DNA of 35,635 nt, taken from an uncultured Myxococcales bacterium (GTDB lineage Bacteria > Myxococcota_A > UBA9042). The DNA is taken from positions 1 to 35,635 of the forward strand of contig CALENB010000136.1 in the NCBI GenBank assembly GCA_937910235.1. Direction: 5' to 3'. The number at the start of each line of letters is the position of its first letter. The first letter of the stretch is position 1. A program made the translations under genes and the position numbers. The notes under the pieces are model-generated. The model had not been told where the DNA came from. It saw only the letters and a list, made by a program, of their open reading frames with translations, and searched no databases. Positions 32,877 to 35,635 of the stretch are shown one piece after another.

Positions 32877-33275
32877 TCAGCGCGCGCGGACCCAGATGCT
32901 GCGGCCGCGCTTCTCGAACTCAACCTTGCCTAGCTCGGCCAAAATCGGCGTCACGTAGCTCGCGAAGCGGCCGCGATAGCCCTTGCGTACGCCATACCAG
33001 CCGCCGGCAGGGTTGGCGTCAGAGCGCCCCCAGTGCTCAACCGTGCCCGGCTTGGTCTCGACCTTCTCGTCCTTGTTGCCCAGCTCCATCCAGTCGCCGT
33101 GCGCCACGAGCATGGCGTGAAGATCGTCGAGCGCGCGGAGCTGGTAGTGCAGCCACGTCGACCCAACTTGGCAGTGCAGCACCTGCTTCTCTTCGTCCCG
33201 GTGCATCTCAAAGGTGGCCTGACCCAGCGGTGTGTTCAGCAACCACGGATCACCCACTACGCCAGCTCCACTCAT
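32877..33275 (-). CDS. Small conserved-looking protein of unknown function
   Basis: The 132-residue protein starts MSGAGVVGDPWLLNTPLGQ and has a compact basic, aromatic C-terminal half (GGWYGVRKGYRGRFASYV). No transmembrane segment or signal is seen, so it is likely cytosolic. I do not recognise the family. The ATG at 33275 has AGGAG six bases upstream; a longer open frame to 33458 has no such site and crosses the regulatory repeats. It is divergent from the TetR gene and could be controlled by the same region. Confidence 0.75.
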   Translation of the reverse strand: MSGAGVVGDPWLLNTPLGQATFEMHRDEEKQVLHCQVGSTWLHYQLRALDDLHAMLVAHGDWMELGNKDEKVETKPGTVEHWGRSDANPAGGWYGVRKGYRGRFASYVTPILAELGKVEFEKRGRSIWVRAR

Positions 33276-33371
33276 GATGTTCTCCTTTTGCGCGCCGCTG
33301 ATGGACGCAGGCGACACACGCGCGTGTCGCTGCTCGCGAGGCGACCGACAGTAGACCCCGTCGCCTCCGAC

Positions 33372-33415
33372 GGCGCAACGATCGCGCAGCGACCGCGCAA
33401 TCACCGCGCAACGAC
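33372..33415. repeat. Four 11-bp direct repeats upstream of the TetR gene
   Basis: Four contiguous 11-base units (33372, 33383, 33394 and 33405) share the pattern CGCGCAACGAC with small changes. The period is close to one DNA helical turn, so all units face the same side of the helix. The array lies between the small unknown gene on the minus strand and the TetR promoter. Confidence 0.8.
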
Positions 33416-33435
33416 CCTGACAGGCCAGGAATCGC

Positions 33436-33464
33436 TTGACACCACAATAAATGACCATAATACT
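33436..33464 (+). promoter_or_regulatory. Promoter of the TetR gene
   Basis: A consensus TTGACA (33436-33441) is followed by a 17-base spacer and AATACT (33459-33464). The region is distinctly AT-rich for this genome. The palindromic operator (33452-33474) covers the -10 box, so binding of the regulator would block transcription. Confidence 0.55.
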
Positions 33465-33474
33465 AATATGGTCA
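33452..33474 (+). promoter_or_regulatory. Palindromic operator at the TetR promoter
   Basis: TGACCATA (33452-33459) and TATGGTCA (33467-33474) are perfect 8-bp arms, with 7 bases between them. The size and symmetry match operators of TetR-type repressors. A related element (ATGACCATAAT-N9-GTCAATT) is found again at 34148-34174 at the start of the downstream gene. Confidence 0.65.
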
Positions 33475-33499
33475 ATTCGCCATCACCGAGGTCCGTCCC

Positions 33500-34147
33500 A
33501 TGCAAGCTGACAAACACCGCCGCATCCTGGACTGTGCTGCTGAGGCGTTCGCGCGATTCGGATTCCGCAAGACGTCGATCGCGGACATCGCTGCGGACGC
33601 GCGAGTCGCCAAAGGCACGGTCTACCTAGCGGCGACCTCGAAGCAAGACCTGTTCTACCAAGTGCTACACCGCGAGGTGCGCGAGGGTGTCGCCGCGGTT
33701 GGCCAGCTGATTGACGCCAGAAAATCAGCCGAATCGCTGCTCGCGACCGTGCTGGAGGCCGACTGTCAGCACTACGACACGCGACCGCTGATCCGCGAGC
33801 TGCTCGTCGGCGAGGCGGCTGTGGCGGTGCCAGACCAGAGCGTGGAGTTCAGCGAGCTGCGTCGCCTCGCGCGGAGCAACCTGCGCGACGTGGTGCGTCT
33901 GGGTCAGCGACAGGGCGTCTTTCGGACCGATATCGAGGCGGATCTGGCGGCCGAGCTCATGCAGGACATCCAGGTAGCGACGCTGCTCTTTCACGACGCA
34001 CCCGGGCTGAGCGAGGCGTCGCATCCACGCTGGCAGACGACGGTTCAGATCTTCGTACGCGGCCTGCGGGTCGCCGCTAGCTCGACGGCGATCGACGCCG
34101 CCGCTTTCACGGGGTGCGCGCTGCGGACCCAACCGGTGAACCCATGA
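33500..34147 (+). CDS. TetR-family transcriptional regulator
   Basis: The 215-residue protein has the TetR DNA-binding N-terminus: a helix with RILDCAAEAFARFGF (8-22), then the turn and recognition helix (about 26-45, TSIADIAADARVAKGTVYL). The C-terminal ligand domain is unassigned. It probably represses its own promoter through the palindrome at 33452-33474 and controls the VTT gene, whose start overlaps its stop in an ATGA junction with a similar operator-like element inside. The ATG at 33500 has GAGG upstream. Confidence 0.9.
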   Translation: MQADKHRRILDCAAEAFARFGFRKTSIADIAADARVAKGTVYLAATSKQDLFYQVLHREVREGVAAVGQLIDARKSAESLLATVLEADCQHYDTRPLIRELLVGEAAVAVPDQSVEFSELRRLARSNLRDVVRLGQRQGVFRTDIEADLAAELMQDIQVATLLFHDAPGLSEASHPRWQTTVQIFVRGLRVAASSTAIDAAAFTGCALRTQPVNP

Positions 34148-34752
34148 ATGACCATAATGAACAAACAGTCAATTTGGGACTCACCGCTGACGACGCACCA
34201 CGCGCGACCGGTCGACGGTGGCGCCTACTTGGCGTGGGCGTCTTGCTCGTCACCCTCTATCTCGTCGCGCGCGCCACGGGGCTCACAGAGTGGGTCACAG
34301 CGGAGCGACTACGTGGCGCGATCCTCGGAGCGGGGCCGTGGGGCGTCCTGGTGTTCCTCGTCGCGTTCGCCCTCGGCACCCTGGTGCAGGTCCCGGGCGT
34401 GCTGTTCATCGCGGTGTCGGTCGCGGTCTACGGACAGCTGCTGGGCGGAACTATCGGCCTCGCGGGCGCCCTGATCGCGGTGTCCACGACCTTCTGCACG
34501 GTGCGCGCGGTGGGCGGACGGCCGACCGGCGCTGCGGCCAAGGGGGTCGTCGGAAAGCTGCTCGGTGGGTTGCAGCGCTACCCGAAGCGCACGGTCATCG
34601 GCCTGCGTCTGGTGACTTTTCTGAGTCCGCCCGTGACGTATGCCCTCGCCCTCTCCCCAATCCGCTACCGCGACTACATGATCGGATCGGCCGTCGGGCT
34701 GGTGCCACCGTTGATGACGCTCGTCGCGCTGTCCAAGTGTCTATTGGCCTAG
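34144..34752 (+). CDS. TVP38/VTT-domain (DedA-like) membrane protein
   Basis: The 202-residue protein has a hydrophilic N-terminus and several hydrophobic segments (about 28-45, 65-90, 95-120, 152-175 and 180-198). LVQVPGVLFIAVSVAVYG and LRLVTFLSPPVTYALALSPIRYRDYM match the two halves of the VTT (SNARE-associated Golgi) domain with its conserved proline and RL-x-P-x-P-x-x-x-Y positions. Proteins of this group act in lipid or membrane homeostasis, in some cases as lipid scramblases. The ATG overlaps the tetR stop. An operator-like element lies in its first codons. Confidence 0.85.
   Translation: MNDHNEQTVNLGLTADDAPRATGRRWRLLGVGVLLVTLYLVARATGLTEWVTAERLRGAILGAGPWGVLVFLVAFALGTLVQVPGVLFIAVSVAVYGQLLGGTIGLAGALIAVSTTFCTVRAVGGRPTGAAAKGVVGKLLGGLQRYPKRTVIGLRLVTFLSPPVTYALALSPIRYRDYMIGSAVGLVPPLMTLVALSKCLLA
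34148..34174. promoter_or_regulatory. Second copy of the TetR operator-like element, inside the VTT gene start
   Basis: ATGACCATAAT (34148-34158), nine other bases and GTCAATT (34168-34174) match the element at 33451-33477 at 18 of 18 flanking positions with the same spacing. The left arm TGACCATA is intact; the right arm is AGTCA where the first site has GGTCA. It lies within codons 2-11 of the VTT gene, so repression by a roadblock or looping to the upstream site is possible. Confidence 0.55.
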
Positions 34753-34786: not shown

Positions 34787-35341
34787 CTAGCTCGACGAGG
34801 CGCACTTGCCGCTGCGACACGTGCCCTTGCCGCAATCGGAGTTCGAGCTGCACGTGCCGTCGGGCGAGTTGGCGCACTTGCCGCTGCGGCAGGCCGCGCC
34901 GCCACAGTCCGACTTGGAGCTGCAGGAGCCGCCGCGCGCCGTCGCGCACTTGCCGCTGCGACAGGACACGCCCTTGCCGCAATCCGAGCTGGAGCTGCAG
35001 CCGCCGGCGCCCACGGCACATTTGCCGCTGCGGCACGAGCCCTTGCCGCAGTCCGAGTTCGAGCTGCACGTGCCATCGGGCGCGTTGGCGCACTTGCCGC
35101 TACGGCAGGCGGCGCCGCCACAATCCGACTTGGAGCTGCACGAGCTGCCCGGTGCAGTCGCGCACTTGCCGCCGCGGCAGGACACGCCGCGGCCGCAGTC
35201 CGAGCTTGAGCTGCACGAGCCGCCCGATCGGGCCCAGGCGACGGTGGCCCAAGCGACGGTGACGCCGACCGTGAGTGTGGTCGCCGCCAGGACCAGCAGG
35301 GTGAGGGTCTTGCGGCGAGTGAGCGTCAGGTTGGTGGGCAT
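34787..35341 (-). CDS. Secreted protein with six four-cysteine repeats
   Basis: The 184-residue protein has a signal peptide (TLLVLAATTLTVGVTVAW, cleavage near 38) and then only repeats. Each unit is about 24 residues with C-x5-C-x4/5-C-x4-C, for example CSSNSDCGKGTC followed by RSGKC, giving 24 cysteines in all and none outside. The units come in order A-B-C-A-B-C. The motif resembles disulfide-rich modules in secreted proteins of myxobacteria and relatives. No lipobox is seen. The ATG at 35341 has GAGAGGA upstream. Function may be binding, structural or signalling; none is proven. Confidence 0.8.
   Translation of the reverse strand: MPTNLTLTRRKTLTLLVLAATTLTVGVTVAWATVAWARSGGSCSSSSDCGRGVSCRGGKCATAPGSSCSSKSDCGGAACRSGKCANAPDGTCSSNSDCGKGSCRSGKCAVGAGGCSSSSDCGKGVSCRSGKCATARGGSCSSKSDCGGAACRSGKCANSPDGTCSSNSDCGKGTCRSGKCASSS
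34790..35215 (-). repeat. 216-bp tandem duplication inside the Cys-repeat gene
   Basis: Residues 43-114 and 115-184 are encoded by two copies of a 216-bp unit (35215-35000 and 34999-34790). The copies differ at scattered, mostly synonymous positions. Each copy holds three four-cysteine modules that are more alike across copies than within one copy. Confidence 0.8.
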
Positions 35342-35635
35342 GAGTCCTCTCGTGGGCTGGGCGCGCGCCGCCGAAGGGGTGCAGGCAGTCACGCTGGCAA
35401 CGTGCGCCAGCGGCTTTGGGCCGTCAAGGCGAAGTTGGACAGTCCCAGCGTGGGCAAAGGCGTCGGAGAGGAAGGACCCAGCGGCGGTCCACGTCGTCGT
35501 GACGGCGGCTGAGACGGCAGGCCTCGATCATCGTTTCGTCCATGACGGTAGATCAGGCAGTCTCGCGAACACCCGTCCCTAACTAAAAGTGGATCAACAG
35601 ACACGCGCACCGCGAACGAGTCCACCACAGCACTA
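35342..35635. other. Intergenic right end of the window
   Basis: This stretch lies upstream of the Cys-repeat gene and runs to the window edge. A short open frame on the minus strand (35389-35628, 79 residues) has no domain or good ribosome site and was not accepted. I see no clear promoter. The gene that would flank this region is outside the window. Confidence 0.4.

Follow-up and report, generated by a model that had tools for sequence, protein, structure and literature searches.

The tetR gene of the window (the whole 35,635-nucleotide stretch of DNA that was analysed) is bracketed by two copies of one palindromic element, and the existence of two operators for the TetR regulator encoded between them is well supported by sequence comparison. 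The first site, op1 (33452..33474, no strand assigned), lies over the -10 box of tetR; the second, op2 (34149..34171, no strand assigned), begins 2 nt past the tetR stop codon and occupies codons 2-10 of the following gene, which encodes a VTT protein. We consider it probable that both sites are operators of this TetR and that op2, in the window, works as a roadblock to elongating polymerase.

The regulator gene (33500..34147, plus strand) encodes a protein of 215 aa with a TetR_N helix-turn-helix (PF00440, 2.1e-11, over the gathering score) and a TetR_C_29 domain (PF17938). Compared with the NCBIfam equivalogs (RutR/FadR/AcrR), it stays far below every cutoff, the best match being FadR-type (53.5 bits; cutoff 200). 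The VTT gene (34144..34752, plus strand) encodes 202 aa with a VTT domain (PF09335), a DedA/TVP38-like membrane protein; an ATGA overlap joins the tetR stop codon to its start codon, ATG 34144, which is preceded by GGTGA. A start at TTG 34174, which would leave op2 untranslated, is possible and was set aside, as it lacks a Shine-Dalgarno sequence whereas ATG 34144 follows GGTGA and overlaps the tetR stop. The divergent neighbour of tetR, on the minus strand (32877-33275), encodes a DUF6855 (PF21619) protein, with op1 some 175 bp ahead of the start of that gene. Beyond the VTT gene, the minus strand at 34787-35392 encodes a predicted secreted Cys-rich protein, with a signal-like N-terminus followed by CSSxSDCGxGxxCRxGKC-type repeats.

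The initial annotation had described the same element at the tetR promoter and inside the start of the VTT gene, and both copies are indeed present there with 0 mismatches, the number expected by chance within the window being 0.00. In the whole 7.1 Mb genome the string ATGACCATAAT-N9-GTCAATT occurs exactly twice, at op1 and op2. The element, palindromic over 23 bp, has TGAC-N15-GTCA as its core, and the flanks common to the two copies are short (AA on the 5' side, ATT on the 3' side). Op1, TGACCATAATACTAATATGGTCA, is near-perfect, with 20 of its 22 arm positions symmetric; op2, TGACCATAATGAACAAACAGTCA, retains one arm and the outer TGAC/GTCA half-sites, beyond which little is symmetric (10 of 22). 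Being less symmetric than op1, op2 of the window may be a weak binding site. The consensus of the family of related loci described below, TGACYR-N11-YRGTCA, has three matches in the 7.1 Mb, two of which are op1 and op2 while the third is GC-rich, so that the regulon looks local, with one further consensus match besides the pair.

The control of tetR itself is the clearest part of this organization. A sigma-70-type promoter (33436..33464, plus strand) is composed of TTGACA at 33436-33441, a spacer of 17 and AATACT at 33459-33464, the latter inside op1, in agreement with the earlier placing of the element over the tetR -10 box. It scores 10/12 and reaches a z of 3.2 against shuffled flanks, and no other promoter-like match turned up on the two strands from 33250 to 34300; the scan was modelled on E. 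coli sigma-70, and promoters of another type would escape it. Across the family op1 likewise holds the -10 of a TTGAC-type promoter (mean z 3.02 against shuffled flanks), mostly at op+4, op+10 or op+12. Because op1 overlaps a sigma-70 -10 here and in nearly all relatives, repression by TetR of its own promoter through op1, the autoregulation suggested at the outset, is strongly supported. In this respect the system resembles the autoregulated TetR/AcrR repressors, which share the TetR_N helix-turn-helix, a palindrome over their own -10 and a second operator at a neighbouring target; a palindromic operator at its own promoter, with binding predicted from sequence, is what op1 represents here and in 27 of 29 relatives. 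Unlike them, it has a 23-bp palindromic operator, TGAC-N15-GTCA, and reaches no NCBIfam equivalog cutoff. Its architecture differs as well: one site lies on either side of the regulator gene, without a shared divergent promoter, and the second may fall within codons.

Whole genomes from the same genus, family, class and phylum, those of another class in this phylum, and genome contigs were searched for relatives of the TetR. After exclusion of an outlying long-branch relative (L044, which has neither operator) and of two duplicates or near-duplicates (L056 and L064), 29 distinct family loci were counted, whose regulators are 33-52% identical to that of the window. In 27 of the 29 loci a TGAC-N15-GTCA site precedes tetR by no more than 100 bp (0.08 expected from dinucleotide shuffles), and the two loci scored as lacking it, L060 and L070, carry similar palindromes with half-sites one base wider apart. 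The second element, whose presence in orthologous loci the initial annotation had proposed to check, was found within 300 bp past the tetR stop codon in 27 of the 29 relatives (0.10 expected). Elsewhere on the family loci there is one such site in 89 kb, and the control loci of more distant TetRs (n=19) contain one in 62 kb and no pair. Taken as sequence evidence, this conservation strongly supports op2 as a true operator of the tetR product. That the repeat reflects chance or coding similarity, with no operator at all, is hardly credible: op2 is translated, and nothing else speaks for this explanation, which was rejected on the window, genome and family-locus site statistics, namely the expectation of 0.00 in the window, the two genomic copies and the occurrence of the pair in relatives far above shuffles.

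The gene that follows op2 is not constant. In most loci it encodes a ferritin-like diiron protein, but the window has the VTT protein in this position, and other loci have a zinc-type quinone oxidoreductase (L045) or an SDR (L057), both assigned by Pfam, or proteins recognized by eye from the sequence: SDR (L072, L073), aldo-keto reductase-like (L075), P450-like (L076) and short lipoprotein-like (L071). In the TetR tree the SDR and AKR loci group together and the window is on its own long branch, many forks being unresolved. No ferritin-like gene was found elsewhere in the window genome, in a search run without a positive control. Relatives across the phylum retain op2 in front of target genes that have been exchanged repeatedly, which gives the operator pair the look of a portable control cassette. 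Most relatives have op2 between the genes, 11-47 bp ahead of the next start codon; only at three loci, the window and the sister loci L058 and L059, does it overlap the opening codons of the gene that follows. In L058 and L059 it covers roughly codons 5-12 of a ferritin-like gene, which read SDWLT(S/A)MVK, and strong Shine-Dalgarno sequences set the gene start upstream of it. Of the proposed intragenic second site, the role as an operator is strongly supported, whereas its placement inside a gene is a local variant. As the tree separates the window widely from L058/L059, capture of op2 by a reading frame probably took place at least twice.

The codons of the VTT gene over op2 are AT-rich, with a GC3 of 0.3 against 0.83 in the remainder of the gene, and no later run of 10 codons has a GC3 below 0.5, which suggests selection acting on the DNA and not on the protein. 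Relatives of the VTT protein align to it only from residue 20 onward, and TGAC-N15-GTCA is absent from the loci of the seven that were inspected; the segment encoding op2 is for these reasons seen as a variable N-terminal tail. A quite unlikely alternative would make op2 of the window a relic, the VTT gene having joined an old second operator that now provides mere N-terminal codons. The degradation of half of its palindrome is compatible with this, as is the position of the VTT gene as a newcomer whose relatives have different N-termini, but a relic would hardly be expected to match TGACYR-N11-YRGTCA exactly, as one of only three sites in 7.1 Mb, nor to retain AT-rich codons in a GC-rich gene.

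A second question is whether op2 contains a promoter. If it were an ordinary promoter operator, the -10 of the downstream gene would be inside op2 and be occluded by TetR. There are some signs of such an arrangement among the relatives: in nine loci TTGNNN can be paired, at a spacing of 17-18 bp, with a weak -10-like hexamer at op2+12, a position used also by the op1 promoter in L072-L075; op2 is usually close upstream of a start codon; and in L042 and L071 op2 is preceded by a strong terminator hairpin of tetR, past which the next gene would need a promoter of its own. On average, however, the promoter signal at op2 is no better than in shuffled flanks (family-wide mean z 0.38 vs 3.02 at op1). 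Op2 also has an inner signature distinct from op1, TGACCAGAAAAC(C/G). In the window no sigma-70 promoter for the VTT gene was found at op2, where z is -1.3, below its shuffles, and a transcription start within op2 would come after the VTT start codon. We therefore regard an own promoter at op2 as unlikely.

A roadblock is the likeliest predicted role of op2 on the tetR-VTT transcript because op2 of the window shows no promoter and the two genes overlap through ATGA; judged from the letters alone, op2 of the window is a candidate repressor site past a promoter and without one of its own. According to this model, TetR on op1 would cover the -10 of its own promoter and so silence both tetR and the overlapping VTT gene, while TetR on op2 would provide a further, likewise conserved level of control over the gene after tetR. 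Polymerase escaping op1 would be stopped by op2-bound TetR just past the tetR stop codon. Basal transcription would then yield repressor but little VTT protein, and a ligand would presumably release TetR from both sites together. Roadblock operators are found in E. coli, PurR at purB being one example. Repression of this type is also known for LacI roadblocks, and termination at roadblocks is promoted by Mfd (PMC10310618). The likeness to the E. coli cases consists in a repressor site past the promoter that is able to stop elongating polymerase; the differences are that roadblocking is here a prediction and that the site belongs to the regulator encoded on the same transcript.

In about half of the relatives op2 has an additional feature. 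Of the 29 loci, 15 (L029, L042, L055, L060, L062, L065-L071, L076, L078 and L079) have a T7-9 tract whose end lies 8-12 bp, usually 9, before op2, and only one such tract occurs elsewhere on the family loci, in 98 kb; the tract is absent before op2 of the window. The candidate role of the tract as a plain intrinsic terminator of tetR was discarded, convincing hairpins being present in few loci only. Because the hairpins before it are weak or missing in most loci and strong in L042 and L071, it is not simply an intrinsic terminator everywhere, and together with op2 it may constitute either a repressor-dependent terminator or a weak promoter. The combination of a T7-9 tract and a TetR palindrome 8-12 bp further on could be a terminator gated by the repressor, a possibility that we put forward tentatively. 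Polymerase would come to a halt against bound TetR, its active site lying within the T tract, and would be released there; both genes would be fed by one promoter, with the ligand determining if transcripts extend beyond tetR. In that case the window and L058/L059 would be variants in which the site has moved into the next frame and acts as a plain roadblock. A comparable anatomy is known from the yeast Pol I terminator (Reb1/Nsi1 and a T-rich element), in which the polymerase comes to rest within a T-rich stretch located 15 bp before the roadblock site (PMC12366685). The likeness lies in the T7-9 tract about 8-20 bp upstream of the palindrome in half of the relatives; the polymerase is bacterial, the proteins are unrelated, the analogy is anatomical only, and the window has no T tract. 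Together, the loci with a T tract and the three that have the operator in codons offer a natural test set for repressor-stopped elongation in bacteria.

The initial annotation had also suggested DNA looping over about 700 bases, in which a TetR assembly would bridge op1 and op2 and strengthen repression as the auxiliary operators of lac and gal do. One regulator with two operators about 700 bp apart, kept as a pair, is what such a mechanism would use. The spacing nevertheless varies from 626 to 881 bp, merely following the length of tetR plus the gap, and no helical phasing was detected (25 loci; Rayleigh p ~0.5 for periods of 10.4-10.6 bp, which is weak evidence at such a distance). Proteins of the TetR family usually bind a single operator as dimers, and this analysis gave no indication of a tetramer. 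Looping is thus unsupported, and we judge it very unlikely.

In the open-access literature no description was found of this TetR group or of a TetR-VTT operon, and the group, with its predicted operator and two-site layout, is apparently undescribed. As this layout can be read directly from genomes, it allows the target gene of each member to be named. Among known operators, that of RutR, a member of the TetR family, is TTGACCA-N2-TGGTCAA; its half-site TGACCA/TGGTCA is similar, and the window TetR shows weak N-terminal sequence similarity to RutR, but the half-sites of RutR are 2 bp apart against 11 bp here, and the window TetR scores 31 bits against the RutR cutoff of 368.

A second TetR-VTT locus with the same regulator was not present among the relatives searched, and the search of plasmids for the regulator returned distant TetRs only. 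In line with a local regulon, 17 relatives have 2-9 consensus matches each, against 0-2 for a control with the reversed pattern. Genome G539 has extra family-consensus sites away from tetR, two of them 67 bp apart on contig C119 and one, identical to op2 of the window, on contig C197, a hint that this species may have a small regulon. Finally, in five loci (L042, L066, L067, L068 and L076) an extra GGTCA half-site, oriented as a right half-site, is present 3 bases past op2.
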